A model generated the notes under the pieces. The model saw only the letters and a program-made list of their open reading frames with translations, was not told the DNA's origin and made no database searches. A stretch of 64,000 nt of DNA from Paragyromitra xinjiangensis (taxonomy: Eukaryota > Ascomycota > Pezizomycetes > Pezizales > Discinaceae): positions 620,001 through 684,000 of the forward strand of contig JBCAMK010000022.1 of the NCBI GenBank assembly GCA_038503065.1. Direction: 5' to 3'. Shown in pieces: positions 16,108-52,209 of the stretch (the first letter of the stretch is position 1; the number at the start of each line of letters is the position of its first letter). A program made the position numbers and the translations under genes.

Positions 16108-16114
16108 ACAACAC
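16108..16114. repeat. Target-site copy ACAACAC at the h1/A2 junction
   Basis: ACAACAC lies between the h1 poly-A tail and the A2 5' end (CGTCCCCGCGACTA). It is the third of the left-type copies in the array. Confidence 0.85.
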
Positions 16115-16264
16115 CGTCCCCGCGACTAAAATAATCCCTGCAAAACACCAAAATCTACGTTGCAATGGCGTTACACACACACAAAAGTCTTTAACTCTTG
16201 TGCTTCATTTATCACCACCCTTACCCCGCTTTCATAAAGCACGGGCGCATTGCCCCACAACACA

Positions 16265-21576: not shown

Positions 21577-21831
21577 CTGGTTATCCGGGCGGGGGAAGTT
21601 TTTCCTTTGTATCCGGAAGTGGTTTCAATTAAATTGCTTTAAAATTTTTATTAGTATTTGTTTGTTTTTATGGTATAGTTTTGTATTTTCATTTATGTTT
21701 AAGTTTATGTTTTGTGTTTATCGGGGATGTTACGAGGTTGGTGGTGGATGAGGCCATGTATTTTTGTATACCGTGCCATTTTGTTTAGCTAGTAGGTAGT
21801 TGATCAATCTAAATCGATTCAAAAAAAAAAA

Positions 21832-21838
21832 ACAACAC
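21832..21838. repeat. Target-site copy ACAACAC at the A2/h2 junction
   Basis: ACAACAC lies between the A2 poly-A tail and the h2 5' end. The final right junction at 23921 reads TAACACGAGAT, so the last target copy is AACAC preceded by T instead of AC. Confidence 0.85.
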
Positions 21839-26309: not shown

Positions 26310-28284
26310 TTTATTTATTTATTTATTGCTCATATTGCATAAATCCGTAACGGATATGGCATACAATGAAAGGAAACCCCATGACCGTACAATAACTAAC
26401 AAAAGAAAATCCTCCGCGAACATGAACCAACTAATTAGTAGATATCCACATCAGATATCCTTTTGCGAAAACAAAACATAAATCAAAACAAAATAACAAA
26501 AGGAAAATAACAAAAAAGGAAATAACAATTTTTATCTCAAAGTTCTACCGAACAGTAGAAACGAACGGATTATCAGTTGACAGGGTAAAATCATAGGGAA
26601 ATACTCTAACAGTTTTTATAATCAGAAATCCTCCACGCAGTCATGTTCCATCTCACCCCACTTTCAGGGTATTCATCAGTTTTCTATCATCCTTCACCAT
26701 CACATGCTTTGGGCCTATAGCCCGTTCTTACTAGCCGTTCTCTCTTTCTCTTTCGCTCTCTTCCTCTTCGTCATTGTAGAGGTATATTCCTTGGTGGGAG
26801 TACCTGTTGTCTTCTTGTCGTTCCAGGGTCCAATTTCTGGTAGCGATTTGGGTTGGTGTGAGGAATGTTTCAATGGTGGCAGCCAGGCCAGCATTGGTAT
26901 GCATCGCAGTTCTCCATGTGAGTGGCATTGGTTTGAGGGCTGCTTTGAGTGCTTTGCGATAGGTAGGAAGTGGTTCCTGGCCACACTCTAGCAGTAGGTG
27001 TTGAGGTGTTTGGTTATCGAAGCCACATTTGCATTTGGTGTCTTCAATGTTGTTGGTGGGGATTCTGGCAAGGTAGGATTTGGTGTATCCATGTCCGGTT
27101 CTCATTTGAGTGATGGTGGAGGCTGTTCTTCTGGGGATGTTTCCCCTCAGCGGGGCACTTGGTTTCAGTGCTGGTTGTCCGTAGTAGCTGCGGCCTTTCT
27201 TTGCCTGCTTCCATTTGGCTTTCCATGCCGTCAGGGAGTGTTCCTTGATGTTTCTCTTGAGGTATGTGATGGAGGTGAGGACATCTGATTCTATCCTGGT
27301 TCCTTGGGCTCCTATCTTGGCAAGCTTATCAGCTAGCTCGTTGCCGGCAACATTGACATGTCCTGGTACCCAATAGACATGGGTTTTTATGCCACTGTCT
27401 TCGAGTTGAAGCAAGTTGTTGCGCGCTTCAATGACCAGGTGTTGGCCAGGCATGGGGAGGGGTGTGGTCATTCGTTGCACTGCTGCTTGGTTGTCACAGT
27501 AGATGTAGACATCGTTCGTCAGGTGAGGTGATCGCTGTACTTGTAGGATTGCATGCTTAGTGGCTTTTGCAATACCATAAAGTTCTGCGTCAAAGACTTC
27601 GTTTTCTTTGCCGAGGTGGTAGGATTTGTTGACGACAGAGTGACCTCTGCGGAAACCAGCAACTCCAGCTCCTGTTTTGCCTTCCAGGAGGGAGCCATCA
27701 GTGTAGAAGACTAGGCGATCAGTCCTAGTACTGTCTCCAGCTGTGTGGTTCCGATGGTTTTCTGCTGCTGCGTCTTTATCTGCAGGGTCGATGTAGATGT
27801 CAATGGTGTTTTGGTGCCATGGTGGACAAGCCAGATTATCTACGCATTCAATCTCTGATTGTGGCTGGATCCATTTGTTGGTAGATGCCAGTATCCTATG
27901 TAGTCTTGTTTCATATTTGGGGGAGGTGGTGGTGGCTTGGTGCCATGTAGTGTTGTTGGAGTTATCTGGGTTGTCGTTTTCCTGGGTTGAAGGCCAGGAA
28001 TCAGGGCAGAGGGAGGTGATGGGATGGGTGTTTGGTAGGGAAAGGACTCGGAGTGCATATTTCCTTTGCAGCTCGTCCAATCTGATTGGGGTAGGGAGGA
28101 GTCCTGTCTCTGCTTCCAGGGCATGAACAGGTGAGGTTCTGAAGGCTCCAGCAATCTTGCGCATTGCTTGATTCTGGACTTTCTGGATGGTGTTGCTGAG
28201 TCCAATCTGTCCGTTCCACCACACTTCAGCTCCGAAGTCACTGATGGTGGCTACACAGGTTTGGTAGAGTTGGCGGAGTGCCTT
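26310..28284 (-). mobile_element. LINE-D2, 5'-truncated LINE inserted in LINE-B3 ORF2
   Basis: The 14-bp duplication CCCGGCTTCAGGTA (26296-26309 and 28285-28298) flanks a minus-strand fragment of the D family. It starts in the post-RT region (KALRQLYQTCVATISDF) and runs to a (TTTA)n-type 3' tail at 26310. Its 421-nt 3' UTR (26310-26730) resembles those of LINE-C1 to C3. 5' truncation is the normal outcome of incomplete target-primed reverse transcription. Confidence 0.9.
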
Positions 28285-32444: not shown

Positions 32445-32593
32445 GATGATTTGGGGCAGAGCGCCCGATGAAAAGGTGCGAGTGCGGGGAAGTGGTGAGA
32501 AATGAAGCCGAAGAGTTAAAGACTTTTTGCAGTGTGTAACGCCGTTGCAACGTAGAATTGGAGTTTTGCAGGGATCTTTTTGCTCGTGCAGGA

Positions 32594-33348
32594 TGAGGTC
32601 CAGGGACGGTATGGCACCTCCAGAGGTAATAACTCGCCGTACTTCTTGTGGCGGGCGGTTTTGTTCCTCTGGCAGCTATCACAGCTCCGCACATACTCTT
32701 CAATGTCCTTATCGATGTTGGGCCAGTAGAAGTTGGACTTGATTTTCTCAACTGTCTTGAACTGCCCGAAGTGACCGGCCATCTTGCTATCATGGCACTC
32801 AGTGAAGATTTCCTGGCGGAGGTCTCTGCCTTCCGGGACATACCATCGGTTCTTGTAGAACACTAAACCATCCTTGAGGGACAGTGACGGGTCTGATCCT
32901 TCTTTCTTCTCCTGTAGTGCCTGGCGGATGCCTTGCCACTGGATATCTTGAGCTGCCGCAGCTTCAAGCCTCTGCAAGAATGTAGACTGGAGTTGGTGAA
33001 CTCTGATGGCCGCTAGCCTAGCAGGGTTCAACACCAATTGCCAAGGACGGAAAAACAACTGCGGTTCTGCAACTGCAGGTTCACCTCCCTCTCCTAGGCG
33101 GTGATCCCACCGTCTGGATAGGACATCTGGCTTCCCATTCTTGTCACCGGATCTGTAGACCACCTTAAAGTTGTAACCCGCCAGGTCTTCAGACCATCTG
33201 GCCTGCCGGCGGGTTAAGACCTTGGTACTGTTGAAGTACTCGAGGTTCTTATGGTCCGTGAACACAGTGACTTCTCCCTCTACTGACTTCAAAAGGTGCT
33301 CCCACTCTCGGAAAGCAGCCACTATGGCGCCCATTTCCTTGTCATGGA
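32594..33348 (-). pseudogene. gypsy-1 pol: end of RNase H and integrase zinc domain
   Basis: In minus sense this reads DKEMGAIVAAFREWEHLL and VFTDHKNLEYFNSTKVLTRR, the distal RNase H part. It then reads DVLSRRWDHR, the linker, and the H-H-C-C zinc domain (GHFGQFKTVEKIKSNFYWPN, CDSCQRNK), ending LPLEVPYRPW at the LINE-B3 insertion. Its start is cut by element X inside the NYDIH/DKEM stretch; removing X and the 2-bp duplication keeps the frame. Confidence 0.9.
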
Positions 33349-33885
33349 CATCAGTAAAAAAAAAAAGGCAACCAGAAGGGTAACATTGTATAATGGCATT
33401 TTGACCCTCCAGAGGACAGGCATTGCCTCTTGAACCCCTCCTGACGGCCTGCCTGCGCCTGTGCTGCATCCAGATGCGCACTGACCAACTCTTACCGCCA
33501 GCTAACGCCAGAGAGCCCTTCCAGAAGCCCGACCGACCTGTGTGCGTCTGACACCCTCCCGATGCGTGTAGCTGCCGGAACTTTTTTTTATTTCGCTAAG
33601 TCAAAACCCTGACCCTAGGCACTTAGCGATTTTCAAAATCTTCAAGCTTCGCTTAGGTGTCGCCTAAGCAACGCCTAAGCAACACCTAAGCAACGCCTAC
33701 TAAGACACCTTCCCCTATTCCTTCCCATCTGCTTCCCCCTATTCTCTCCCACCCATTCTCTACTAACATCGTGAGATTTAGGCCTCGAGCAATAAGCTCT
33801 GCTTCCGAAGAACCTTCTAGGTAACGTCTTGCTTCCGTTTATTTGACTCCCGCTGATATGCCTCCTAGACTCGGTTCGATTTACA

Positions 33886-33917
<32 letters not shown>

Positions 33918-34713
33918 CTGCTTCCGCCCAAGCGAGCTCAGGAGGCAACTAAATTCGCTGCCAGCCTCTAGCAGGTCGTCGATTCGCTGCCTGCGCTGCC
34001 TGTGCCTGCGCCATATGGTCGATTCGCTGCCTGAGCTTCCGCCATATGGCCGATTCGCTGCTGCAGCTTCCGCCATATGGTCAATTCGCTGCCTGCGCCA
34101 TATCGTCGATTCGCTGCTGCAGCTTCCCCCATATGGTCAATTCGCTGCCTGAGCTTCCTCCACCTCCGCCACATGGTCGATCCGCTGCCTGAGCTTCCGC
34201 CGCCTCTGCCATTTGGTCGATTTGCTGCTGCAGCCTCCGCTGCCTCCGCTGCCTCCACCATATGGTCAATTCACTGCTGCAGCTTCCGCCACCTGTGCCA
34301 GTTGGCCGATTCGCTGTGGGTAGTAAATGTTTGTACATATATATAGATAGATCCGTAGAATAGTAAATAAATCAATAGAACGAATTCGAGCCATACAAGC
34401 CATACAAGCCATACAAGCCATACACGCAAAGCGTGCAATTCCAAACCTACCAAAATGTGCTGGCCCCGCAAGAGGTTCCCCCGGACGTACAGAGGTCGAC
34501 AGGCTTCGTCCAGACGACCAGAGCCCGCCAAGGCGACCAGAGCTCATCCAGACGATCAGAGCCTACAGCGCTGCCTTTCAGACGGCCAGAGCTCCTACCC
34601 CATGTCTTCTGGACGACATGTAGTTGGACCACGCTGCGTCCAGAAGGGTAGGTTTCCGCCATGGCATTTTGGCGTCTAGAGGGACTTTACGGCATTTCCG
34701 TTTTTTGCTGATG
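33349..34713. mobile_element. Element X, CATCAG-ended non-coding DNA element
   Basis: A 1365-bp insertion in gypsy-1 with inverted ends CATCAGTAAAAAAA and (reverse) CATCAGCAAAAAACGG. The dinucleotide GA is at both borders, and its removal restores the gypsy sequence exactly. The interior has no convincing gene. It holds a CGCTAAGT/ACTTAGCG inverted pair (33595-33630), a (CCTG)n run near 33885-33915, and a purine/pyrimidine-biased repeat field at 33955-34315. That field repeats units like GCTGCCTGAGCTTCCGCC and CATATGGTCGATTCGCTGC. ACAAGCCAT repeats are at 34390-34425. No transposase was seen. Confidence 0.75.
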
Positions 34714-36513
34714 GATGTCATAGTTTATCTCGGCGGGGGAAAACTTCTTGGAGTAGAAGGCCACAGGGTGTAGCTTCCCATCCTCGCCATACTGAGATAG
34801 CACTGCACCTTTCGCAAAGTCACTTGCATCAGTTTCTACAACTGTGCGCCTGCTGGGGTGAAAATGAACTAGGACTGGCTCACTTGTGAACAGCTGCTTG
34901 AGTTCCTCGAAAGCTCTGTCACAAGCGGCAGTCCAGAACCACTTCTTGTCTTTCATCAGCAGATCCGTCAAGGGCTTGCAAACCCGACTGAAACCTGCTA
35001 TGAATCTCCTGTAGAAGTTGGCGAAGCCTAAGAAGGCCTGCACATCCTTCACAGTTCTAGGTACCGGCCACTCCCTGACAGCATTGACTTTCTCTTTGGA
35101 CATAGAGATGCCATGCTCGGAGATGTTGTACCCCAAATATTCCACTTCTTTCAAATGAAAGAAGGACTTGTCAATGTGGGCATGGAGGTTGGCTTCTCTC
35201 AACCTTCCTAACACCTTCTTGACGAGGAACTGGTGTCCTTCCATGTTCTCGGAGTATATAAGTATATCATCTAAGTATACTATAACTCCGAGATATAGGA
35301 GGTCATGTAGAACCTCATTGATCATAGCCTGGAATGAGGAGGGTGCATTGCACAGACCAAATGGCATGACATTGTACTCATACAAGCCATATCTGGTCCG
35401 GAAAGCTGTCTTCCACTCGTCCCCTTTGGCGATCCTTAGCAGGTTGAACCCATCCTTCAGGTCTATCTTGGTAAAGACCCTGGCGGTGGTCAACCTGTCT
35501 CTCAGTTCTGACATCAGCGGAAGTGGGTACTTGTCCTTGATTGTGATCTTGTTCAAGCCCCGGTAATCCACACAAATGTGGAGGGTACCATTTGGCTTGG
35601 GCACAAACAGGATAGGAGCGGCGGCGGGGGAATTGGACCTGGAGATCTTTCCGGAGGGTAGTGCTTTGTTCAGAAACTCCCGGAGGGCCTTCAGCTCACT
35701 CTCAGAGCATGGATAGAGAGGCCCAAAAGGTGGTTTCGTTCCGGGCTGCAATCTGATATGGTGGTCAAATGCACTATGCTCCGGTAGCTTTGAGCTCTTC
35801 TCATTGCTGAACACATCTGCCCATTCCCGGTACTCTGGCGGTAACCTCAATCCCACATCTCCGCCCTGCTCATCATGCCACACTGCTGATCCAATCTGAT
35901 GTACATTGGCCCTATCTTCGGCCAACTTCTCCCAGTCTTCACATACTTCAATCGTGACATCGGCGGGAATGCAATGCTTCTTGCAATAGTCACTCCTCCA
36001 CCTGACGCGGCCAGTATGCCAATCAAAGTCTGGGTTGTGCTTCTGAGCCCATGAGATGGGAAGATATCCGGAGATGCCTTCTTCTAAAGGTCCCACCTCC
36101 CACCGGATCAACTCCTCATGTTTGCCCATCACCATGTCGAGGGTGGCAGTAAAATACTCGCCAGCTCCCATCATGAGGTCACCTTGGGCATCAAACATCT
36201 GAATAGGAGAATCTCGGCGCTCCACAGGTATCTTCTCTTTCTTCACAAACTCTTCGCTGAGGATAGGCCCGGTGCATCCAGTGTCAAACAGGAACCTTCC
36301 ATGGCACCTGCTGATGTGGTTCCGCACCTTCCAGTTCAACTCAGCCTTCAGGATGGGTCTCTGCCCATGGACGGGTTCTGGCGGGGGTTCTTCCATTCTT
36401 CTCTTTGTTGGTGTGTGGTCTTCATGACTGGGACTTCTCTGGCGCTTTGCCACTGACCTCTCGGGTCTGGTCTTACTTATGCCGCCTTGAAATGGAGTGT
36501 AGCCTGTAGACAT
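34714..36513 (-). pseudogene. gypsy-1 pol: protease, reverse transcriptase, start of RNase H
   Basis: The ORF starts at ATG 36513 (MSTGYTPFQGG), matching gypsy-2. Protease FDTGCTGPILSEEFV is at about 75. RT motifs: SNSPAAAPILFVPKPNG, DYRGLNKITIKDKYPLPL, TKIDLKDGFNLLRI, MPFGLCNAPSSFQ and VYLDDILIYSE. RNase H starts with VVETDASDFAKGAVLSQYG. The frame is open until element X at NYDIH. It is separate from gag, 188 nt downstream of its stop, with a hammerhead-like sequence between. No internal stop was seen, so the only damage is the insertions. Confidence 0.92.
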
Positions 36514-36597: not shown

Positions 36598-36650
36598 ACT
36601 GGCATATTTGACCCGCAAATTTCGGGATATTATCCCTCCTCAGTACCAGT
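36598..36650 (-). ncRNA. Type I hammerhead ribozyme in the gypsy-1 gag-pol spacer
   Basis: Minus sense, 53 nt. Stem I is ACUGGUA (36650-36644) with UGCCAGU (36604-36598), seven pairs with one G-U. The core CUGAGGA is at 36643-36637. Stem II is GGGAU-AAU-AUCCC, five pairs. GAAA follows at 36623-36620. Stem III is AUUUG-CGGGU-CAAAU, five pairs including the A15.1-U16.1 pair. Cleavage is predicted after A17 (36605) in the triplet AUA. It lies 51 nt after the gag stop; 91 nt would remain before the pol ATG. CUGANGA, GAAA and NUH fit the hammerhead consensus. Six base pairs covary with the gypsy-2 copy. Activity is untested. Confidence 0.85.
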
Positions 36651-36701: not shown

Positions 36702-38895
36702 CTAGATGATTTCAGGTCCACTGTCATCATCTACTGCCGTAAATACACCAGTCTCCTGTTTGAGACTGCCGGAACTCTGTCCTGATCTAGATACAGTGGC
36801 AACTTTTCCCTTCTTAGATTCCGGAGGATCACTGGCCTCTAGCTCAGTTCCTCTCTTCCTCTTTCTTACTGCCGCAACTCTAACAGTTACCGGTTCAGCA
36901 GTCCAACACTTAAACCATGCATGTCCACCCTTTCCGCATTTCAGGCACTTATCTGCCTTTTTTCTATCGGAAAAGATACCCTCGGGTATTCCTATCAAGG
37001 GGTGGTTAGCATGTGGTGTCTTATCAAGGGAGGTTGGACTCTGCCATACCTTTTAGCTCCACAGCTTTATCTTTCTTCTCCTGCGGTGGGTTACTACCCC
37101 CGGGAGTGGACTTGTTCTCAGGGGAGGCGGCGGTACTCTGACCTTTGCCTCTACCTCTGGATCTCTTCTTCTTCTCACCTCCTTCTCCTGTTGCCCTGGA
37201 CTCCGGGGCTCTGACCTTCCTGTGTCTTTCCAGGACATGTCCCATGTGGCGGATCATCTGTATCCTCTCATGGAGGGACTGAGGTTTGACTGCAACCTTA
37301 GCCCAGTCCAGAGCCAGTTCAGCGGTGAGGCCTTGGGATATTTTATCATCCACAACCTCGCCAGCATAACCGGTTTTCCACATGAGTTGGACTATCTGGT
37401 CCAGGAAAGCATCGATTCCGGCAGTCTGGGAGAGTTTATCCCACTTAGCTACCGCTTCTTCTCTGGTGACTCTGTCACCAAAGGATGATCGGAAGGAACT
37501 GGAAAAGGTGACCCAATGGTTCCAGTGAGGGTCTAGCTGAACAGGTCGTCCTGCAGCTCTATCGGCAGCACCTTGGTCTATGAGGTTATGGTAGGCCTCT
37601 TACCAGTTGACTGCTGCATGTCCTTCGAGAAGGTTGCCAGTGTAGCGGATCTTGATTGATTCCTGCTGGAAACTGGAAGCTTCAATGGTGAAGACATTTT
37701 CGCATTGCCGGAGGAATCGGTCCACATCAGTAGCTTCTCCCTTGAACTTGCTGGGTTGAGGTGCCTTGGGTTCTTGTCCCCTGAGGCTCCCAGTAGAGGT
37801 GGGACCAGTGCCACTGCTGAAAACTGTAGCCATCATCTCCAACATCTTCTTCTCTGCTTTCCGCTGCTTCTTGCGGAAATACTTCTTCCACTCCTTCGGA
37901 TCCCTCTCTGCCCCTCCTCCACTACTGCTGCTGCTACTATCACCGGGGTCTCCTCCTCCTCCTACTCCTATATTTCCATCACCTCCTCCTGCTCCTCCTC
38001 CCTGGTTCTCGTTTCCCTGCCCTTGCTGTTCACTGGTTTCTCTTCCTGTTCTTCCTCCACTACTCTCTCCTTCCTCCTTCCTTTCTTCCGAGGGCCTTGG
38101 GTATGTTCCTCTTGGTAGCCATGAGCTACCACTATCGAGGGGTGGTGGTGTATAACCACTGCCACCTGCAAGGGACCAAGGTCCATAAGAAAAGGGACCT
38201 CTAGGTGTCTGTGGAGGTATTGGAGTAGAGGATGAGCCTGAGGGCGCAAAACTAACTACTGGTTTTTGAACTGCGGGGGGTAACGATGGGGGGTCTGCTT
38301 TGTTGATAGGTGTGGTAGGTAGGGTGATTGGGAAGCTATCTGAGAGAAAGACACTACTGGATCTTTCTCTTCCTGCCGCTGGTTTTGGGGGTGCGGTGAT
38401 GTGTAGTCGGCCTTCTGTAATGGCCTGCTGTAGTGCTCCGATGTAGTCAGGAATTCCAACTGCTTCGGGGGGGTCTATATCCATGGGATCAGTTGCGAGG
38501 TCGTCTTTGTCCGTCAGCAACTGTTGTAAATGCTGCTGGAGATTGAGGACTTTCTGGTCCAAATACTCAGCAGCCTCCCGCAACAAGGTATTCTCCACTT
38601 CTTGCCGTTCCTGTAGCATTCTCATGGTCTGTGTGGTATCCCCAACCGATAGGTTGATCTGGGACATGAGATGGTCTTGAAATGCGTCGAAGAAATTGGC
38701 TATGGTGACTTTTGATGTGTCTGTCCATGGGGTGGAGATGCCTGGGATATGTCTTTGGATAGTGGATTTCGGGCGGTGGACTAATTGTGTCATGTCTGTC
38801 TCCCCTACTGCTAGTTCCTTCTTCTCCCAAGTAATCTGAAGGGGAAGCACCGGGGCATTGATCGCCGGGGTTTCGGATCTGCGGGAGGATCTCAT
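36702..38895 (-). pseudogene. gypsy-1 gag (two exons, one premature stop)
   Basis: Starts at ATG 38895 (MRSSRRSETPAI), 40 nt after the 5' LTR. A proline-rich N-terminal domain with glycine/serine-rich linker precedes the capsid region (EPKAPQPSKFKGEATDVDRF, FLRQCENVFTIEASSFQQ, FGDRVTREEAVAKWDKLSQT). A TAA at 37600-37602 replaces the tyrosine codon of NWYEAYYN in gypsy-2. Exon 1 ends at 37050 and exon 2 runs 36991-36702, giving KGIPEG across the junction, then the zinc knuckle CLKCGKGGHAWFKC and a basic tail. Gag packages the element RNA in virus-like particles. The stop probably inactivates this copy. Confidence 0.87.
36992..37049 (-). other. Predicted 58-nt intron in gypsy-1 gag
   Basis: Minus sense: the donor GTATGG follows AAAAG, a TGCTAAC branch site lies about 18 nt from the acceptor, and the acceptor is GATAG. 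Unspliced, gag ends ESNLP before the zinc knuckle. Spliced, codons join as K-G-I-P-E in frame with CLKCGK. Gypsy-2 has an intron at exactly the same codon. Confidence 0.82.
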
Positions 38896-39967: not shown

Positions 39968-41661
39968 CATCAGCAAAACTGATTCTCGGCTCCCAGGCAC
40001 TCCCGGACCCTCATGGATGGCGCGGACCAGATGGAGGCAAGTGCCAATCCATGGAACAGCCATATCCCAAGGACCCTTGCACACGGTTCCCGGACCACAC
40101 ACCACTTCTCACAGACCCTCGTGGACCTCCCTGGACCACCTACCATAGATGGCGGACCTTCCTGGAGCTCTATCAATTCCTGTGGACCACACTGTCGCTT
40201 GTAGGTCCATCAGCAAAAAAAAAAATTGGCACCCAGTGCCTCTGAAGGAATGTGGCCTTCCAGAAGATCAGGATGCACTGGGTGCCAAAATGATACTGGG
40301 TGCCAAAAATATTGTTACCGGATTAGGCTGAATGATAACATACTAAAAGTGAAAAATTGCACCTGGTACTTCTGAAGGAATGTGGTCTTCCAGAAGATCA
40401 GGATGCACCTGAAGACCAAAACGCACTGGGTGACAATTAATTTTTTTGCTGATGTCGCTTATAGGGCGGCTGTAGGGCGCCAATAATACTACTACTAGGG
40501 GTACACAAATGTACATGATTATTGGTATCAATTCAGCTATGTATATTGAAAAGCTACACTATAGGATCTCTATGTACAAAATCAAGCAGTCGCCACTAGA
40601 GGCAAACCCCCCCCACACTAAACCCACCTGTGCCTAAATCAATCGTTTGGTCTGCTATTCAGCAGTTGTTTTAGGCGCTGGCACGCAGTTGATTCGGAGT
40701 CTATTCAGCAGTCAATTGAGCAGTCAATTCGGCAGGATTCGGAGGCTTAGTAACGGCCGATTCAGAGTCAATTCGGCAGTCAATTCGGCAGTCAATTCGG
40801 AGTCTATTGAGCAGCCAATTTGGAGTCTATTCAGGAGTCAATTCAGGAGTCAATTCGGAGGCTTAGAAACAGCCAATACGGAGGCTGCTCGGGAGGCTCT
40901 CACAAAGTCGATTCGGCAGGCTGTGGAAGCGAGCGAGGTCTGCTGCTGAAGGGGTCTGCGGCTAAAGAGGTCCAACCAAGCGAGGTCTAATGTAATAGGG
41001 TCCTATGTCTGCTGTCAACGATGTCTGAATGTATTTGGGAACTGAAGTCACGATGTTAGCAAAGTTCATGTAACTGCAAAGTAGGGAGGGAAGGGCAAAA
41101 GGGGGTGTGGGTGGGTGTGAATGGGTGGGAGTTGGAGAATAGGGGTAAGGTGGCAACAGTAGGGTACGGGTGGCAGCGAAAGGCATTCACCAAAAATTCG
41201 CTAAGTCCCTAAGGTCAGGGTTATTGATTGTCGCTTGCAAGCGAGGTCCAAGTCCTGCGATCTCCTGTCAGCGGGGTGCGCAATTCAGGGGTCTAATAGA
41301 GGGCAGGTACGTGCCTCAGGGCGCTGGTGGAGTGGGGGTACACACTTCAGTGGTATCCAGAGAGCACCATGGACCTAGAAAAGCGAACCCTGATTGGCAC
41401 CGGAGATGGGTACGAAACTCCAGAGAGGACCATGGACTGTGAAGCTGAGCTCCAGGAGCTCCAGGAAGGTCCATGGCCATGCAAGCGAGGTCCATGGGGT
41501 GTGCTGGAGCACAGTCCTTCATTCCTGCAGGTACCAGGGTGCGCCACAACACAGGTGGTTGATCCAGTTGCACTCAGGACCCTCCCACACCAATGCTCAG
41601 ACATCCTGGAAGATGCGGGACCAGGAAGTGCAAGCCTGGATCAGAATCAGTTTTGCTGATG
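39968..41661. mobile_element. Element Y, CATCAG-ended non-coding DNA element with perfect 19-bp inverted ends
   Basis: 1694 bp bounded by CATCAGCAAAACTGATTCT and its exact reverse complement. AG is at both borders, and deleting it restores the surrounding X-type repeat. The interior has no credible gene. It has a tandem field at 40685-40870 built on CAATTCGGAGTC/CAGTCAATTCGG units, and GC-rich non-repetitive stretches at 41200-41640. It contains the smaller element Z. Confidence 0.78.
40208..40454. mobile_element. Element Z, 247-bp MITE-like CATCAG element
   Basis: Ends CATCAGCAAAAAAAAAAATTG and (reverse) CATCAGCAAAAAAATTAATTG, with TC at each border. Inside is a direct repeat of about 40 nt (GAAGGAATGTGG.CTTCCAG, near 40236 and 40373), itself containing a CTTCCAGAAG palindrome. 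It is too short to code for a transposase, so it would be mobilised in trans. Confidence 0.75.
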
Positions 41662-41766
41662 AGCTTCCGCCGCTTCCGCCACATGGTCGATTCGCTGCTG
41701 CAGCCTCCGCAGCCTCCGCCATATGGTCAATTCGCTGCCTGAGCTTCCGCCGCCTCCGCCATATGG

Positions 41767-42276
41767 TGTCACGGCTCGGGTAGTTTAGCTGGTAAGTTAT
41801 TTGGTTGTTGACGTCTTGTATCCATGGGTCACGTGTTCAGTTCTTGTTGTGGTGGTTTTCGTTTGGGTTCTATGTTGTTCGGTTGTTAGGACTATGCGTT
41901 GCAGGCTTAGTGTTGGGATTTCCTTATTCGGTTATGGGTTCATGTCAGTTGGAAGGTTTCGCTTGCGTTGTGTTTCCTTATTTGGTAGTGTTTGTTCGGT
42001 TATGAATTATGCTGGCGAGAAGGAAGGGTTTAGGGTTGAGGGATTCAGGGGGGATAAATAGGCGAGCTGTTGGCGAGCGCTGGTGATTTCTTCCTTTCTT
42101 CTCCATCCTGTATCTTGTTTAATACACCTCGTATAAACCTTGACCCACGTTCCACCACGTCCGTAGCAATCCCTTGAACTTGGAGTATATTGTGTGACGG
42201 ATAGTCACCGTGCACTAAGTACCTGGTTGAGTTGCGTGATACCTGTGTTTCCTCGTCCCTGGGCTTGTCCGTAACA
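41767..42276 (+). repeat. 5' LTR of the third LTR element
   Basis: 510 bp, TGTCACGG to CCGTAACA, with imperfect inverted termini. No second copy is in the window, so LTR status rests on the ends, the length and the gag-like ORF downstream. Confidence 0.6.
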
Positions 42277-43630: not shown

Positions 43631-45845
43631 ATGGCATCACGTTCTGGACGATCCTCCAGCCGCAACACCCCAGCATTAGGAGCACCCGCTCCTCCCCTTC
43701 AGATTCAATGGGAGAAGAAGACGCTGGCGGTTGGAGACGGAGAAGATGCACAGCTAGTCAAAGCCCCAAAGACAACCCTCGAGAAGTACATCCCAGGTGT
43801 CCAGACCAACTGGACAGACTGGTCCAAAGTCACCATTGCTGAGTTTTTTGAGCACTACCAAGAGCACATGAAGAGCTACATCAACAGCACGGTTGCCCAG
43901 GCAGGACATGCCTTACGGATGTTAGAGGAACGGCAGTCAGCTGAGCAAACCCTCATGAAGGATGCCATGAACTACCTGAATGATCAGGCCCAACACCTAC
44001 AGCAGCGAGTGCAACACCTGCTGCTGTCAAGGGACGAACTAAGCGGAACGGAACCTATGGACCTAGATCTACCGGAGCAGGCTGCTCCACCGGACTACCT
44101 AACCATTGTGCAGGAAGCTATCCGGAGTGGACAGCTACACATCAAGGCTCCGGAAGAAAGGATAGGAAGGCCAAGGTCTAACACTACGTTCCCCTTAGAG
44201 TCATTTCCCCTACCACTCGCACCCCCACCTCCAGCACCACAACCACGACGAAGAGCACGTTCCCAGGCTCCTGTAGATGAGTCCTGGATGCCCCTCGGCC
44301 TCTCTGGCGGATCCAGAACACCCCTACCCCCTTCACGCGGCTACGGTTCGAGTACCTGGGGACTTGGAGGATCTCAGCACTCTGGTGGTGGTGGTCTGCC
44401 TCCTGTAACCCCTCAGGGCACATCAGGACGGGCACCACAGAGAACACCACCTGCTAATTCACCTCCGCCCCCCTTCGACCGGCCGGCAACACCAAGGGAG
44501 GAGAATAGAGGACAAGGAGAAGCAGCGGGCAATGGAGGAGATAATGGTGGACAAGGAGGAGGTGGAGGAGGAGGCAGAAGGGTAGGAGGAGGTGGTGGTA
44601 GGGACCCGGATTCCAGTGATAGTGACTCTGAACCTGAGGGTGCAGATCCTAAAGCCTGGAAGAGGTACTACCATCGCAAGATGAGGAAGCAGGAGAAGAG
44701 GATGATGGAGATGATGGCCACGATGATGGGAGCAGGCGGTGGCATGTCCAACGCTGCCAACAGGACCCGAGAACCCAAGGCACCACAGCCTGCTGAGTTC
44801 AAGGGAGAAGCCCATGATGTCAATCGGTTCCTACGCCAGTGTGAGAACGTCTTCTCGATAGAAGCATCCTCCTTTCAACAGGATGTCATGAAGATTCGTT
44901 ACACTGGTAATCTCCTGGAAGGCAACGCAGTGCTCAACTGGTATGAGGCCTATTACAACCTCATTGACCAAGGAGCAGCTGATAGAGCCGCAGGGCGACC
45001 AGTAGTCTTGGATGCTCACTGGTTCTCTTGGGCCACCTTCACGCTTTCGTTCCGGTCTTCGTTTGGGGATAGAGTCACCAGGGAAGAAGCGGTAGCTAAG
45101 TGGGATAAGCTCTCACAGACCGCCGGTATCGATGCCTTCTTGGACCAGATTGTGCAGTTGATGTGGAAGACAGGCTATAGCGGCGAGGTAGTGGATGATA
45201 AAATATCCCAAGGTCTCAACGCAGAGCTAGCCCTCGATTGGGCTAAGGTAGCTGTTAAACCCGCCTCTCTCCATGAGAGGATTCAACTAGTCCGGCACAT
45301 GGGCCATGTTCTTGAGAGATACAAGAAGACAAGGCCCCCAGAACGGAAGGAAGAGAAGAAGGGTGGTGGCGAGAGTAGTGGAAAGAAGAGGGGTGAGCAG
45401 AAGGGTCAGAGTACCGCTGCTACCTCTGATAGAAAGGCCGCTGGTGAGAATAAGACTCCGCCAGCGAAGAAGGATAAAGCTGTGGAGCTAAAAGGTATGT
45501 CTGAGTACTACCTTCCTTTAAGACAAGTACCTGACTGACCCGTCCGCATTCACAGGAATACCAGAGAGTATCCTGGCAGAGAGGCGTAAGGCCGACGTCT
45601 GTTTAAAGTGTGGAAAGAAGGGCCATTCATGGGGAAAGTGTTGGACTCAGGTTCCTGTGGTAGCTAGAGTAGCAGCCACGAGGAAGAGGAAGAGAGCAGA
45701 AGAGCTAGAAGCCTCTGCTGTTCCACCGGAGTCTAAGAAGGGAAAAGCAGCCGCAGTAGCGGCAGTCCATAGTCCTGTTCCTCTCAAGGCAGAGCCTGAG
45801 AGATTGTTTGTAGTAGATGAGGATAGTGATCCTGAGATCTACTAG
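43631..45845 (+). CDS. gypsy-2 gag (two exons): capsid and zinc knuckle
   Basis: Start ATG 43631 (MASRSGRSSSRN) is chosen by match to gypsy-1; the frame is open 31 codons further up without need. Exon 1 (43631-45494) has an N-terminal domain (PPLQIQWEKKTLAVG, TDWSKVTIAEFFEHYQEH), a proline/glycine-rich linker, and the capsid region (FKGEAHDVNRFLRQCENVF, GNLLEGNAVLNWYEAYYN, FGDRVTREEAVAKWDKLSQT). Exon 2 (45556-45845) has CLKCGKKGHSWGKC, a basic NLS-like run (RKRKRAEE) and an acidic end. Splicing joins K-G-I-P-E. Unspliced, it ends at 45538 without the knuckle. The frame is intact. Confidence 0.88.
45495..45555 (+). other. Predicted 61-nt intron in gypsy-2 gag
   Basis: Donor GTATGT, branch-like CTGACTGAC about 18 nt before the acceptor, acceptor CACAG. 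Removing it joins exon codons at the same residue as in gypsy-1 and adds the zinc knuckle. Reading through it meets TGA at 45536-45538. Conserved position with different intron sequence supports function. Confidence 0.83.
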
Positions 45846-45886: not shown

Positions 45887-45938
45887 AGTTGTACTGAGGA
45901 GGCCTGATAGGCCGAAATCGCTGGATCGATATGCAACT
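45887..45938 (+). ncRNA. Type I hammerhead ribozyme in the gypsy-2 gag-pol spacer
   Basis: 52 nt. Stem I is AGUUGUA (45887-45893) with UGCAACU (45932-45938), seven pairs with one G-U at the same position as in gypsy-1. Core CUGAGGA 45894-45900. Stem II GGCCU-GAU-AGGCC 45901-45913. GAAA 45914-45917. Stem III AUCG-CUGGAU-CGAU 45917-45930, including A15.1-U16.1. Cleavage is predicted after A17 at 45931 (triplet AUA). It lies 41 nt after the gag stop and leaves a 112-nt leader for pol. All invariant core positions fit (position 7 may be any base). Cleavage would separate gag and pol RNAs. Activity is untested. Confidence 0.86.
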
Positions 45939-46043
45939 TCTCCTAGTTAATACCCAGCTCAGAACCATAATCGATACCTGCACAGAAACCTGCTCAACGA
46001 TCATTGACATCGTTGGTTGCGCTACTATCACAGTACAATAGTC

Positions 46044-46818
46044 ATGTCCACAGGCTATACCCCATACAATGACGGCATGCGTAAGACCTTGTCCGAGAGA
46101 CAAAAGGCAAAGTGTCAGCGAAGCCATAGCCCTAGTGGAAACCCACCATCAAAGAGAAGACTAGAAGAACCGCCAGCACAGCCAGTACATGGTCAGAGGC
46201 CTATACTGAAGGCTGAGTTGAACTGGAAGGTGCGGAAGCACATCAACAGGTGCCATGGTAAGTTCCTGTTTGATACCGGCTGCACCGGACCTATCCTCAG
46301 CGAGGAGTTTGTGAGAAAGGAAGGGATACCAACAGAGAAGCGTGAGGTTCCCATTCAAATGCTTGATGCCCAGGGTGACCTGATGATGGGAGCTGGCGAG
46401 TATTTTACTGCCCCCCTAGACATGGTCATGGGCAAGCATGAGGAACTGATCCGTTGGGAGGTTGGACCTCTAGAGGGAGGCATCTCTGGGTATCTACCTA
46501 TCTCATGGGCACAGAAGCACAACCCAGACATCAATTGGCATACCGGCCGCATCCATTGGCGTTCCAATTACTGCCACAAGAACTGTATCCCCACTGACGT
46601 CCACATAGAGGTGTGCGAAGACTGGGAGATGATGGCAGAAGACCGGGCCAATGTGCACCAGATTGGAGCTGCGGTTTGGCATGATGATAGCGGAGGAGAT
46701 GTGAGCCTGAGGCTACCAGCAGAGTACAGGGAATGGGCGGATGTCTTCAGCAATGAGAAGAGCTCAAAGCTGCCGGAGCATGGTGCTTTCGATCACCACA
46801 TCAACCTACAACCAGGAA
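46044..46818 (+). pseudogene. gypsy-2 pol, part 1: protease and start of RT region
   Basis: Starts at ATG 46044 (MSTGYTPYNDGM), equivalent to gypsy-1. It carries FDTGCTGPILSEEFV (aspartic protease DTG), then EREVPIQM-like, GYLPISWAQKHNPD and EYREWADVFSNEKSSKLPEH. It is cut at NLQPG by LINE-C2. The same frame as gag is used, but stops in the 198-nt spacer (45846-46043) separate them, and the spacer contains the hammerhead. The rest of pol resumes at 49139. Confidence 0.9.
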
Positions 46819-49093
46819 AAACTCAAAACCGACAACAACAACGCCAAAGTGACTTTTTGGTCACAACTCCACCAGTTTTACTCCGATTGCTCTACTTTTC
46901 GATTATTCGGACTCGCCTCGCTGCCCTCGTTCGATCCTGCTATTGTACGTCTAGTTTGCACCGGATTTGCAAAAGTTGTTGTCGAATTCGCTGTTTTACC
47001 CCTCTTTCCCCCCCCAACAACAAAAACCTCACCAAACTTTGGCAATCTGCATTTTGTCATAACTCCACCAGTTTTCGTCCGATTAGCTCGACCCCGGGCT
47101 TTTTGGAACCGCCTCAGCGCGCCCGTTCGATCGCCCTCTCGTTCGTTCGGATCCGACCAGAACTGCAGAAGTTCTGCTCGCTTTCCCATTTCCCTCCGCC
47201 AGGGACCCCCCCCAACACACCCCACCTCCTCCTGTCGGTTCAGGACCCTTCTCTATGTCTTCCTCTTCGTCTAGAGGCAGAGGGAGAGGCAGAGGCTTCA
47301 GGTCTCCCTCTTCTGTGACTAGTTCACCTCAAAACCCACTCCAAACGCCCTTTGGCGCACCTACAACCCCCCCAAACACCCGATTTTCACCTCTGCTCCA
47401 TGGAGACCCAGAGCAAACACCTACCCAAGCCCTGCCACTTCGCCCAGCAGTCCCCCTACCTCACTATGCCTCCCTGCCCGCCACAGAGCCTACAGACAGT
47501 GGCTCTGTTCTCCTGGAAGAGTCTGACTCTGACATGACGGACACAGAGGGACCCCTCACCTTCTCCACCACCCTACCTCCAGTCATCCAGATGGACGACT
47601 CCAACAGCAATCTAGATCGCCTTGGTGCCATTGGTACTGGGGAGAACTACAACCCCTCCCTCTTCGCAGTGATGGATGAGCAGAACAGGCTCATCAAAGC
47701 ACTCACCAAACGCGTCAAACAGCTTGAAAAAGCTATCCTCACACCCCCACCAGCCCCTACCTTCCACAATGACCCAGCTCTAGTGGAAAAGGTGGCCACC
47801 CTCACCTCCAAGGTTGCAGACTTGGAACAGAAACGGACTCTTACAACCATTCTGACCTCTGCCAACCTCCCCCCACCTCCCCCACCAGCCACCACCTCCT
47901 GGGCTCAGGTTGCCTCTAAAAGGGCTCCTAGACCCGCCAGCAAGGCCTCCAAGCCTACCAAAACACCATCAAACCCCCCAAAACGCGACCGTACTCTCAT
48001 CATCACCAGGAATGGTCTACCCATTCCTGATGACATCACCCCACTCCTCATTCGCAATGCAGTCAATGCTGCCCTGGAAAGGCCATTGATTGCAGAGGTG
48101 CGATTCACACCAGCACACCATGTGCAGCTCATTGCTGTCACCTCCACCACCTCTGACTCCCTCCTCAAGCAAAGACAGAAGCTTGAGGAAGTTGTTCGCA
48201 ACACCATCCCCAATGCCAACAGCATGGAAAAGGAAGCAGTCCTGACCCAGGTTGTTGTGCACAACATTCCCACCTCCATTCCCTCTGGCGAAGAGGGCTT
48301 CCAGCAAATCAGATCTGAGGTTGAGCAGTTTAACCCAGGCACCACCCTACTCCGCGACCCCCGCTGGCTCACTAGACCTGAGCAGAGAGAAGGGAAACAG
48401 GCATCCTCCATGGTTCTGACCATTGTGGGGAAGCAGCCTGCCACCACTGCCCTTGAGAGAGGGCTCTCTATGTTTGGACTTCGTCACAAAGTCACCAAAT
48501 ACCTTCGCTTTGGGCCAGACACCCAATGCACCACCTGCCTGGCCTTTGGCCACCCACAACAACGCTGTACCAGCAAGACCCCCTTCTGCAACATCTGTGC
48601 TGGGCCTCATACAGCATCCTCCCACTCCTGCGCAACCTCCTCTTGCACCATCAAGGGAGCTCCCTGCCTCCACACCATCATCCGTTGCAAGAACTGTAAC
48701 GAACCGCATCGTGGTAACTTCTCTGGTTGCCTCAAACTCACTGAAGCCAGACTTAGTGCCAGCGAACGTCAGGATCGCATGGTAACTTAAGTTACACCCT
48801 ACCCCTATTGATGTATCCAACCTTCAGGGGTCTTCGGACCTGGTGGAAGGAGTGCTATAGGCACAAAGCAAGCGATGGTAAAGGAAGAATGCCCAGGGTA
48901 GTCTTGACACTGTGAGAGGGAGTCACTAGATCGGGGTATTAACACATTCACTGATGACGAGCCTAGAAGAGGCTGAGTTGGAACTGGTGGAGGATTAGTT
49001 AGTTTTGTTTTGTTTTGTTTTTTTTTTATGTTCCTGTTGGGTTTTCTTCTGCTGTACGCCATATCCGTTTCGGATGCATGCGAGTATGAACAA

Positions 49094-49122
<29 letters not shown>
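46819..49122 (+). mobile_element. LINE-C2, ORF1-only LINE in gypsy-2 pol
   Basis: Flanked by the 16-bp duplication AACCTACAACCAGGAA (46803-46818 and 49123-49138). It has a 436-nt 5' region, one ORF and a 332-nt 3' UTR ending in (AATA)n. It is very similar to C1 throughout, including the 3' block CCATATCCGTTTCGGATGC. No RT sequence. Confidence 0.92.
47255..48790 (+). CDS. LINE-C2 ORF1, Gag-like RNA-binding protein
   Basis: Intact, 511 residues from ATG 47255 (MSSSSSRGRGRGRGF). It is colinear with C1 apart from a short deletion in the alanine/proline run before TTSWAQVASK. Coiled-coil-like LIKALTKRVKQLEKA, RTLIITRNGLPIPDDITP, knuckles CTTCLAFGHPQQRC, CNICAGPHTASSHSC and CKNCNEPHRGNFSGC. High identity to C1 suggests recent spread of this non-autonomous family. 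Confidence 0.9.
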   Translation: MSSSSSRGRGRGRGFRSPSSVTSSPQNPLQTPFGAPTTPPNTRFSPLLHGDPEQTPTQALPLRPAVPLPHYASLPATEPTDSGSVLLEESDSDMTDTEGPLTFSTTLPPVIQMDDSNSNLDRLGAIGTGENYNPSLFAVMDEQNRLIKALTKRVKQLEKAILTPPPAPTFHNDPALVEKVATLTSKVADLEQKRTLTTILTSANLPPPPPPATTSWAQVASKRAPRPASKASKPTKTPSNPPKRDRTLIITRNGLPIPDDITPLLIRNAVNAALERPLIAEVRFTPAHHVQLIAVTSTTSDSLLKQRQKLEEVVRNTIPNANSMEKEAVLTQVVVHNIPTSIPSGEEGFQQIRSEVEQFNPGTTLLRDPRWLTRPEQREGKQASSMVLTIVGKQPATTALERGLSMFGLRHKVTKYLRFGPDTQCTTCLAFGHPQQRCTSKTPFCNICAGPHTASSHSCATSSCTIKGAPCLHTIIRCKNCNEPHRGNFSGCLKLTEARLSASERQDRMVT

Positions 49123-49124
<2 letters not shown>

Positions 49125-49945
49125 CCTACAACCAGGAACAAAGCCACCGTTTGGGCCCTTGTATGCTTGCTCTGAATCCGAGCTTAAGGCCCTCCGGGAG
49201 TTCCTGAACAAGGCACTACCATCTGGAAAGATATCCAGGTCCAATTCCCCCGCTGCTGCGCCTATCCTGTTCGTTCCTAAGCCTAATGGTACTCTCCGCA
49301 TCTGCGTTGACTACCGGGGCCTTAACAGGATCACAGTAAAGGACAAATACCCGCTACCACTGATGTCTGAGTTGAGGGACAGGCTGAGAACCGCTAAGGT
49401 CTTTACCAAGATTGACCTGAAGGATGGGTTCAACCTGTTGAGGATAGCCAAAGGGGACGAGTGGAAGACGGCGTTCAGGACCCGGTATGGCTTGTATGAG
49501 TACAATGTCATGCCCTTCGGCCTCTGTGATGCCCCTTCGTCGTTCCAGGCTATGATCAATGAGGTGTTGCATGACCTATTGGATCTGGGCGTGATAGTAT
49601 ACTTAGACGATATACTTATCTCCACAGAGACAATTGGGGAGCATCAACGCCTCGTTCAGAAGGTGCTGCAGAGGCTTCGAGAGGCAAGTCTGCATACACA
49701 CATAGACAAGACCTTCTTCCACTTGAAGGAGGTTGAGTACTTGGGATACCAGATCTCCGAGCGTGGCATCTCTATGTCTAAAGAGAAGGTCAACGCTGTG
49801 AAGGACTGGCCAGTCCCTAGGAATGTGAAGGATGTGCAAGCCTTCCTAGGCTTTGCCAACTTCTACCGCAGGTTCATCGCCGGGTTTAGCAAGGTGTGCA
49901 AACCATTGACCGACCTGCTGAGGAAAGAAGGGAAGTGGCACTGGA
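49123..49945 (+). pseudogene. gypsy-2 pol, part 2: reverse transcriptase
   Basis: Between LINE-C2 and LINE-C3. It shows SNSPAAAPILFVPKPNG, DYRGLNRITVKDKYPLPL, TKIDLKDGFNLLRI, MPFGLCDAPSSFQ, VYLDDILI (active-site aspartates) and FLGFANFYRRFI. It ends KWHW at the LINE-C3 target. It continues in frame on both sides when the LINEs are removed. Confidence 0.92.
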
Positions 49946-52209
49946 TTATTTATTTATTTATTTATTTATTTATATTTCATACTGCATAAATCCGAAACGG
50001 ATATGGCATACATATAGAGAAAACCAAACAGAAAACAAAATCAAAACGCAACTAACTACCCGATTCCTCCCACTGGGTCCAACTCAGCCCTCTACGGCTA
50101 TTCTTCAGTTTATGTGTTAATACCCCGATCTAGTGCCCTCTCCCACAGGACAAGACTACCCTGGGCATTCTTCTTTCACCAGCACATGCTTTGTGCCTAT
50201 AGCACGTCCCTCCAACAATCCGAGCACTGTCAAGGGAGATGAAGTCGTAAGGGTGGGGGGAGACTTAGATTTGCATGCGATTCTGTCGTTCGCTTGCAGC
50301 TAGTCTTGCTGCTGTGAGTTTGAGGCACTCAGGGGAGTTACCACGATGTTGTTCGCCACAGTTAGCGCAGCGGAGGATGGTGTGGAGGCAGGGAGATCCT
50401 TTGACATGGCAGGAAGGTTTGCCGCAGGTGTGTGTTGACACTGTATGAGGCCCAGCACAGATGGTACAGATAGGGGTCTTGCTGGTACAGCGCTGTTGGT
50501 GGTGGCCAAAGGCCAGGCAGTGGGTGCATTGGGTGTCCTGTCCAAAGCGAAGGTATTTGGAAACCTTGAGGCGGCGTCCGAAAAGGGAGAGCCCTCTCTC
50601 AAGGGCAGTGGTGGCAGGTTGTTTCCCCTGGATGGTAAGAACCATAGAAGAAGCCTGCTTGCCCTCTCTCTGCTCCGGTCTGGTGAGCCAGCGAGGGTCG
50701 CGCATGAGGGTGGTGCCAGGGTTGAACTGTTCAACCTCTGACCTGATGTGTTGAAATCCTTCTTCGCCAGAAGGAATGGAGGTGGGTACATTGTGCAGGA
50801 CAACCTGAAAGAGAGTGACCTCTTTCTCCAGGCTGTTGGCATTGGGGATGGTGGATCTCACAATCTCCTCAAGCTTTGATCTCTGCTTGAGGAGTGTGTC
50901 GGAGGTGGTGGTCGTGACAGCAATGAGCTGCACATGGTGAGCAGGTGTAAATCGCACCTCTGCAATCAAGGGGCTTTCTAAGGCTGCATTGACTGCGTTG
51001 CGAATGGTAAGTGGGGTGACATCCTCAGGAATGGGTAGACCATTCCTGGTGATGATAAGGGTGCGGTCGCGCTTGGGAGGGTTGGTGGGTGGTTTGGGGG
51101 CCTTGGAGGCCTTGGGGGCGGGTCTGGAGGCCTTTTTGGAGGCAACCTGAGCCCATGAGTGAGGTGCAGGTGCTGGGGCAGCTGCTGGTGGTGGGGGGAG
51201 GTTGGCAGTGGCCAGAATGCTAGTTAAGGCGCGTTTCTGCTCCAAGTCTGCCACCTTGGTTGTGAGGGTTGCTACCTTCTCCACAAGAGCTGGGTCGTTG
51301 TGAACGGTAGGGGGAGGTGGGGGGTTCCTGGCTGCCTTCTGGAGGCGTCTGATTTCCCTCTCCAGTTGCTTCACATAGAGGCGATACTGGTGGAGGTCTC
51401 TCGCAATTTGGATCACAGCATCTGCGATCTTGACAGTGGTGTTGAGGGTGGGAGCCACGAAGTCATCCATGCTCTCATGCTCTGACTCTGACTCTGTCAT
51501 CTCATGGTCTTGAGAATCTGGAGGGAGTGGGAGTGACTCATAGTCCTGAAGGGCAACAGCAGGACGCAGTGGGAGGGTTTGAGTAGGGGTCTGCTCTGGG
51601 TCTCCATGGTGGAGGGCAGAAAGTCGCGAATTGGGGGGTGTGGTGGGTGCTGTGGGTGTTGTGGGGGTGGTGAAGGGCGAAATTGCGCCAGGAGAGGGAG
51701 ACTGAAAGCCTCTGCCTCTCCCTCTGCCTCTGGACGTAGAGGAAGACATGGAGGAGGGTCCTGAACCGACAGGAGGAGGTGGGGTGTATGGGGGGGTTGC
51801 TGTGGGGCCCTGGGGGGGTCCCTGGCGGGTGGGGGAGGGTGTGAGCAGGAAGTGTCAACAACTTCTGCAAATCTGCTCCGATCCGGACGAACGAGAGGGC
51901 GATCGAACGGGCTCGGTGTGGGGAGTCCAAAAAGCCCGTGGTCGAGCTAATCGGACGAAAACTCGTGGAGTTATGAGGTCTTGCAAGATCTCAAGATTTG
52001 AGGTGTAGGGGGGAAAAGAGGGGTAAAATAGCGAATTCGACAACAACTTTTGCAAATCGAGAGCGACCTCGACGTACAATAGCAGGATCGAACGGGGGCA
52101 GTGAGGCGAGTCCGAATAACCAAAAATCTCGTTAATCGGAGTAAAACTGGTGGAGTTATGACCAAAAAGTCGTTTCGTGGTTGTTGTTGTCGGTTATTCC
52201 ATCGATGTT
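49946..52209 (-). mobile_element. LINE-C3, ORF1-only LINE, antisense in gypsy-2 pol
   Basis: 14-bp duplication GAAGTGGCACTGGA at 49932-49945 and 52210-52223. Minus-strand element with the C-type 5' region (51750-52209, CCGACAACAACAACC near its start), one ORF, and a 319-nt 3' UTR (49946-50264) ending in (AATA)n. It shares ATCCGAAACGGATATGGCAT and the GCCTATAGCACG block with D2. More diverged from C1 and C2 than they are from each other. Confidence 0.92.
50265..51749 (-). CDS. LINE-C3 ORF1, Gag-like RNA-binding protein
   Basis: Intact, 494 residues from ATG 51749 (MSSSTSRGRGRGRGF). Compared with C1 the acidic low-complexity part is rearranged (EMTESESEHESMDDF). A helical segment follows (QYRLYVKQLEREIRRLQKAA). 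The central domain is conserved (RTLIITRNGLPIPEDVTP, PNANSLEKEVTLFQVV), as are the knuckles CTHCLAFGHHQQRC, CTICAGPHTVSTHTC and CANCGEQHRGNSPEC. Divergence with an open frame argues that the protein is maintained by selection in this RT-less family. Confidence 0.9.
   Translation of the reverse strand: MSSSTSRGRGRGRGFQSPSPGAISPFTTPTTPTAPTTPPNSRLSALHHGDPEQTPTQTLPLRPAVALQDYESLPLPPDSQDHEMTESESEHESMDDFVAPTLNTTVKIADAVIQIARDLHQYRLYVKQLEREIRRLQKAARNPPPPPTVHNDPALVEKVATLTTKVADLEQKRALTSILATANLPPPPAAAPAPAPHSWAQVASKKASRPAPKASKAPKPPTNPPKRDRTLIITRNGLPIPEDVTPLTIRNAVNAALESPLIAEVRFTPAHHVQLIAVTTTTSDTLLKQRSKLEEIVRSTIPNANSLEKEVTLFQVVLHNVPTSIPSGEEGFQHIRSEVEQFNPGTTLMRDPRWLTRPEQREGKQASSMVLTIQGKQPATTALERGLSLFGRRLKVSKYLRFGQDTQCTHCLAFGHHQQRCTSKTPICTICAGPHTVSTHTCGKPSCHVKGSPCLHTILRCANCGEQHRGNSPECLKLTAARLAASERQNRMQI

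Follow-up and report, generated by a model that had tools for sequence, protein, structure and literature searches.

A type I hammerhead ribozyme motif conserved between gag and pol in two families of fungal Ty3/gypsy-type retrotransposons

Sequence comparison indicates that a type I hammerhead ribozyme is kept by selection in two sister families (A and B) of autonomous Ty3/gypsy-type retrotransposons of Paragyromitra xinjiangensis. The motif lies in the spacer between gag and pol, and one copy from each family is found in the window, by which we mean the whole 64,000-nucleotide stretch of DNA that was analysed (contig JBCAMK010000022.1, positions 620,001 to 684,000 of the forward strand). We are nearly certain that this is a real hammerhead under selection, and we would expect with good confidence that it cleaves in vitro. 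As to what it does, the case for our best overall explanation, in which a selected hammerhead splits gag and pol RNAs by partial self-cleavage, seems to us evenly balanced.

Results

A complete hammerhead between gag and pol

The invariant core of the hammerhead has the form CUGANGA ... GAAA ... UH. All of these positions are satisfied in the family A copy of the window, and the same core is found in both families, where motif scanning and folding each place three helices around it and leave stem I open. The original prediction of a complete type I hammerhead was upheld by direct reading and by the scan, and so was its placement in the gag-pol spacer of a Ty3-like element, where the gag stop codon (TAG, 45843-45845) lies upstream and the pol ATG (46044) downstream.

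Features of the family A copy in the window. The basis of each assignment is given in brackets.
45887-45938, plus strand: type I hammerhead ribozyme motif (direct reading, motif scan and fold; kept in further copies)
45887-45893 with 45932-45938, plus strand: stem I, 7 bp including one U-G pair (motif scan, fold)
45894-45900, plus strand: core CUGAGGA, C3 to A9 (sequence read; same letters in family B)
45901-45913, plus strand: stem II, 5 bp with a 3-nt loop (motif scan, fold; two compensatory pairs relative to family B)
45914-45917, plus strand: core GAA (45914-45916) and A15.1 (sequence read, comparison with family B)
45917-45930, plus strand: stem III, 4 bp with a 6-nt loop and closing pair A15.1-U16.1 (motif scan, fold, comparison with family B)
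45931, plus strand: A17, with predicted cleavage on its 3' side (position read)
45600-45845, plus strand: end of the gag frame, from a CCHC zinc knuckle (from 45600) to the TAG stop (zinc knuckle by eye)
45932-46043, plus strand: predicted 112-nt leader of the pol RNA, without ATG (sequence read, landmark count)
46044-46803, plus strand: 5' part of pol, MSTGYTP... (open reading frame; end set by alignment to family B)
46822-49110, plus strand: insertion interrupting pol (94% identical to window 4516-6831)
49159-49989, plus strand: reverse transcriptase part of the same pol, past the interruption (RVT_1, E 3.4e-35)

The motif begins 41 nt past the gag-frame stop codon, and A17 is the first base of the sole ATG in the gag-pol spacer of this copy. 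The cleavage position and the 112-nt distance from it to the pol ATG are as originally predicted, the cut itself being a prediction from sequence. Scanning of the window returned two motifs with stems of at least 5/4/4 bp, one per element, while 200 mononucleotide shuffles, scanned with slightly different settings from the real window, yielded three loose motifs in total and none with stems of that length. The minimum-energy fold of the bare family A motif is exactly the hammerhead structure; its energy (-13.5 kcal/mol, z -0.86) is unremarkable for its composition, as is that of the family B motif (z -0.83). Natural hammerheads usually show a tertiary contact between stem I and loop II. None is evident here by eye, loop II consisting of 3 nt and stem I of an uninterrupted 7-bp helix.

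The second motif of the window occupies the same position, the gag-pol spacer, in a related element on the opposite strand.

Features of the family B copy in the window.
36598-36650, minus strand: type I hammerhead, stems 7/5/5 (motif scan, fold; cleavage expected after 36605)
36702-36704, minus strand: gag stop, TAG (sequence read)
34687-36513, minus strand: 5' part of the pol open reading frame, with its own ATG at 36513 (open reading frame list, sequence)

The host elements are coding and of Ty3/gypsy type

The zinc knuckle at the end of gag has no Pfam match. The open reading frame that starts at 46044 continues to 47318, into inserted sequence, and its pol part gives a weak aspartyl-protease match (21.1 bits, under the 28.2-bit cut-off). 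The family A window copy is damaged: an insert of some 2.3 kb, made up of other repeat sequence, breaks pol near 46803, and the alignment between the families stops near this point and resumes at 49129-49945. Among named proteins, those closest to the reverse transcriptase part come from Morchella sextelata (76%) and M. importuna (69%). RNase H ahead of integrase is the Ty3 order. Reverse transcriptase was matched in family A, and a minus-strand open reading frame downstream of the family B pol (32519-33481) contains RT_RNaseH before Integrase_H2C2, the zinc domain of integrase, in a domain search. The integrase catalytic domain had no match among the window proteins scanned; it is listed for a relative, P0124, whose domain order was read by eye. 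The window elements form a nest of fragmented copies, among which the window alignments resolve no LTR pairs. Retrozymes are defined as non-coding, with hammerheads in their LTRs, and these elements are coding with a single internal motif.

Two families share the motif throughout the genome

A 476-bp query from the spacer region gave at least 40 matches, of which 20 lie at 94-100% (family A) and 20 at 66-70%; when the second window copy was used instead, at least 25 family B places were found. The copy numbers of 20 and 25 are therefore lower bounds. The 52-nt family A motif is identical in 17 of its 20 copies; two others carry one C-to-T change each that leaves a G-U pair (L012 and L019), and the last (L016) has lost hammerhead pairs. 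For family B, 18 of 25 copies are identical in the motif. Variants here include a G-U pair (L039), loss of G12 (L045), one mismatched pair (L049 and L051), a truncated copy (L057) and a degenerate one (L058), and the window's own copy (L034) differs from the family majority in loop III.

A strict hammerhead pattern has 41 matches genome-wide, all but one of which belong to the two families (19 in A and 21 in B); its reversed control has none. All 40 sit at gag-pol spacer places, so that none lies in terminal repeats in strict form (diverged second copies are possible). With a permissive pattern there were 62 matches against 22 for its reverse, none of those beyond families A and B being convincing by eye. 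The classical pattern CTGATGAG...CGAAAC has one match in the genome, outside both families.

Core residues are invariant while stem pairs change together

Conservation in further copies had been set beforehand as a test of the original prediction, and it was found, with compensatory changes, in both families. Over the first 219 codons of pol the two window copies are 79% identical in protein (173/219), with dS 1.03 and dN 0.14 (Nei-Gojobori). Across this distance all 11 core positions of the hammerhead are identical, and the 16 stem pairs common to both families comprise six changed on both sides, ten unchanged and none changed on one side only; family B has one pair more in stem III. Helix covariation among relatives, a mark of type I membership, is hence present. 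In an automatic alignment of seven copies, which contains one misplaced gap in stem III, the covariation score was reached by none of 500 shuffles and by no slid register, and the count of doubly changed pairs was reached by 315 of 500.

Variation among copies was compared between the motif and the rest of the spacer. Sites at which the minor allele occurs in at least two copies number 0 of 105 in the motif (52 in A plus 53 in B) and 29 of 281 elsewhere (Fisher p 1.1e-4, for sites that have one common genealogy), and sites bearing singletons do not differ (15/105 versus 46/281, p 0.75). Variants found in two or more copies probably arose mostly in active lineages, and singletons mostly after insertion. 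Within family B, shared-variant sites amount to 1/51 in the 5' spacer, 2/121 in pol and 13/84 in the 3' leader; the first two regions vary hardly more than the motif does, and the contrast in this family therefore rests on the 3' leader. Taken together, the occurrence of copies in two families, a core kept at about one synonymous substitution per site, compensated pairs and the lack of shared variants argue that the motif is not a product of chance.

Folding in natural context and detection by covariance models

By nearest-neighbour folding, the hammerhead accounts for 7-16% of the ensemble of the bare motif and for less than 1% when natural flanks are included (seven copies in one run and 13 in another). 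For comparison, 20 flanked contexts of five putative viral hammerheads gave 10-52% in 15 cases and 0.06-4.4% in the remaining five. The original prediction had raised the possibility that cleavage may need to be suppressed during packaging. Natural flanks do make the hammerhead fold improbable, but no more so than 300 shuffles of the 25-nt flanks of each copy (P 0.13-0.45, seven copies). Built-in masking was accordingly rejected as evidence of a switch, shuffled flanks being equally disruptive; the low fold share reflects a thermodynamically modest motif more than regulation, and flank-shuffle folding revealed no regulator of cleavage.

Some words outside the core are conserved. Just 5' of the pol ATG (46031-46038), CAGTACAA is complementary to 8-10 nt of the hammerhead 5' strand and core. 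This complement is present in 18 of 18 family A copies compared and absent, by eye, from family B leaders, and it could refold the hammerhead after transcription. The CUGG of the stem III loop (45921-45924) is complementary to a downstream CCCAG (45953-45957), and both words are conserved in the two families, with CGGG in place of CUGG in the window's own family B copy. The word TTCTCC, 3' of stem I, is conserved in nearly all copies of both families.

The covariance score above threshold that the original prediction looked for was not reached with Rfam models in the window, the loci or the genome. In the window no family attains its gathering cut-off; permissive scans gave no hammerhead family in a 251-base stretch even at E<=10, and no hammerhead call above cut-off in three loci. 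Genome-wide, RF00163 and RF00008 gave nothing above cut-off, and their weak calls (two and one) lie outside the places of families A and B. A curated model match is a detection threshold and not a defining residue or helix. Since the Rfam models seem insensitive to this form of hammerhead, the missing match was not counted as a refutation.

Pol has its own start codon and no fixed frame relative to gag

In the window copies of both families pol starts with MSTGYTP right at its ATG. Landmarks could be placed in 41 of 45 copies (all but L009, L022, L057 and L058), and the pol ATG is kept in 40 of these, with ATC in L016. The distance from gag stop to pol ATG, taken modulo 3, equals 0, 1 and 2 in 5, 8 and 5 copies of family A (the eight including L023, whose gag stop is mis-anchored) and in 7, 3 and 13 copies of family B. 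The leader from the predicted cut to the pol ATG measures 107-113 nt in A and 90-92 nt in B. Some of the frame-shifting indels, such as an extra A in six family A copies, are common to several copies and would therefore have spread with active elements. All three offsets occur in each family, which makes a fixed frameshift or readthrough of the stop unlikely, and pol needs an entry of its own. Four database relatives of the pol N-terminus, their starts being the choices of gene callers, all begin with Met near the same place and none is a gag fusion.

All 41 copies have the ATG made up of A17 and the two bases that follow the predicted cut. In 35 of them the spacer has no other ATG; five family B copies have one extra at +35, and L023 is mis-anchored. 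The leader contains no AUG before that of pol in 36 of the 41. Depletion of other spacer ATGs is suggestive only (shuffle P 0.041 in A and 0.082 in B). A conserved upstream open reading frame starting at the cleavage-site ATG was considered and rejected, since its length and frame vary widely among copies; the conserved element at this place is the AUG alone.

A more distant Ty3-like element of the same genome (L304, 1108-1162) has overlapping gag and pol frames, with about 49 nt in common, the arrangement expected of a -1 frameshift. Its protein identity is 31% over a portion of the protease region, and its gag-pol junction contains no hammerhead core word (one locus).

Discussion

Partial cleavage as a proposed means of expressing pol

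Hammerhead cleavage leaves a 2',3'-cyclic phosphate on one product and a 5'-OH on the other. RNA with a 5'-OH resists Xrn1, uncapped RNA is translated poorly, and LTR elements need much less Pol than Gag. We propose that a fraction of full-length transcripts would cut themselves after A17, giving an upstream product that is a capped gag RNA with a 2',3'-cyclic phosphate end and a downstream product, the polyadenylated pol RNA, that starts with a 5'-OH and has 90-113 nt of leader. Translation of Pol from its own start codon would be inefficient on an uncapped RNA of this kind, which would keep Pol scarce relative to Gag, and uncleaved transcripts would be packaged as genome. The cut would also split the AUG that otherwise precedes the pol AUG, parting A from UG, such that the first AUG a ribosome might use on the leader would be that of pol in 36 of 41 copies. 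Cleavage destroys genomic RNA, and it must therefore be partial or regulated; a minimal hammerhead without evident loop contacts fits slow, partial cutting, which would supply stable but poorly translated pol RNA while uncut genomes remain.

We infer cleavage, translation from the cut RNA and control of the ratio from the arrangement of the element. The original suggestion that splitting of the transcript could set the Gag:Pol ratio gains indirect support from the conserved ATG of pol and from the lack of a fixed frame to gag, and our confidence that transcript splitting by the hammerhead sets Pol output falls just short of even. It is a more tentative thought, and one that we rather doubt, that ribozyme cleavage replaces frameshifting as the expression switch, with cut gag and pol messages, an AUG removed and the uncut RNA serving as genome. 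Were this true, packaging and translation would be divided by the RNA's own catalytic rate.

Alternative explanations

The separate pol ATG and the variable frame also fit a model in which Pol comes from a subgenomic mRNA, either spliced or started internally, and the hammerhead acts at another step, for instance by destroying full-length RNA that is unspliced or in surplus, or by releasing gag RNA from the need for polyadenylation. Both families have, immediately 3' of the motif, a pyrimidine-rich stretch and a conserved ACCCAG, joined in part of family A by a CTAAC word; by eye these form a possible splice acceptor. The end of gag, however, shows no clear conserved 5' splice site by eye, and the branch-to-acceptor spacing is short, which would be unusual. 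We regard this explanation as unlikely. It is somewhat less likely again that selection keeps the fold for something other than catalysis (packaging, dimer formation, reinitiation or internal entry), with cleavage incidental or absent. The weak predicted fold in natural context is consistent with such a role, as are the conserved words outside the core, for example CUGG in loop III and the downstream CCCAG, but the catalytic core and cleavage-site residues are kept at 11 of 11 positions while stem pairs changed with compensation.

That the motif is a chance occurrence, or an inert relic multiplied by copying, is hardly credible: its bare folding energy is indeed unremarkable in both families (z -0.86 in A, -0.83 in B), yet between-family compensatory changes, zero shared variants in the motif and 40 family matches against none for the reversed pattern all speak against it. 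A further proposal is that the hammerhead yields circular or unit-length RNA, cutting transcripts that come from read-through or from a circular template once per unit before ligation, as retrozyme hammerheads are described to act (PMC4918200, PMC7761336). This seems very improbable here, given one internal motif per element and strict matches that lie in spacers and, in that form, in no terminal repeat. Partial self-cleavage that separates gag from pol remains the explanation that we prefer.

Relation to known systems

A frameshift or stop-start recoding between gag and pol serves the same end in LTR elements, namely less Pol than Gag. Frameshifting needs a fixed frame relation, whereas in families A and B the frame varies. 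If cutting sets Gag:Pol, it would add one more answer to a difficulty that retroviruses and other LTR elements meet with recoding or splicing, and it would raise the question of how a genome that cuts itself gets packaged. Plant LTR retrozymes, as presented by Cervera et al. 2016 (PMC4918200), are likewise LTR-type retroelements with a hammerhead and a link to Ty3-gypsy; they are non-autonomous, have no coding capacity, contain their hammerheads within the LTRs and give rise to circles, whereas families A and B are coding with a single motif between gag and pol. Penelope-like elements and Terminons also contain type I motifs within an autonomous retroelement, but in the accounts available these occupy terminal repeats or sites close to the 3' end of non-LTR elements rather than the space between open reading frames (PMC6431247, PMC7761336). 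One of these accounts calls type I retroelement hammerheads minimal and their role a mystery (PMC7761336).

Yarrowia lipolytica offers another fungal hammerhead associated with interspersed repeats, for which the available text names no element and gives no between-gene placement (Perreault et al. 2011, PMC3088659). The R2 ribozyme similarly self-cleaves and processes a retroelement transcript; it differs in being HDV-type, in lying at the 5' end and in freeing R2 RNA from an rRNA co-transcript, according to the descriptions in PMC3520747 and PMC3088659. The ribozyme class is old, and its placement between gag and pol, together with its use if confirmed, is new in the sense that no description of a hammerhead there was found in the open-access papers searched. 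A gag-pol hammerhead under selection in elements with no fixed frame provides a concrete test of the biological role of a genomic hammerhead.

Additional observations

Among 106 stretches scanned for viral hammerheads, nine compact type I motifs with stems of 6/4/6-10 bp were seen in seven viral contigs (L100, L115, L144, L145, L149, L158 and L184, with two motifs each in L144 and L145); going by sequence, these are perhaps genuine phage hammerheads. No relative of the pol protein was found in the viral contigs. In a prokaryote collection there were 109 pattern matches, and among the 80 of these listed as loci one stretch passed the motif scan, with stems of 3/3/5 bp.

In the truncated family B copy (L057), family B homology starts within 2 nt of the predicted cleavage site, near position 1628, and a different repeat ends there. 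A trace of cut RNA was rejected as the explanation, the preceding sequence being the end of a repeat found elsewhere in the genome, and this single case is likely a coincidence. Short repeats in the window at 33950-34316 (in tandem) and 41660-41767 recur in L050 and L057, where they lie upstream of the family B portion. Elsewhere in the window, 8298-23913 holds two tandem copies of an element, 83% identical, with two open reading frames that overlap in TAATG (stop-start); this element is similar in DNA to a minus-strand EN-RT-RNase H open reading frame at 26731-30864.
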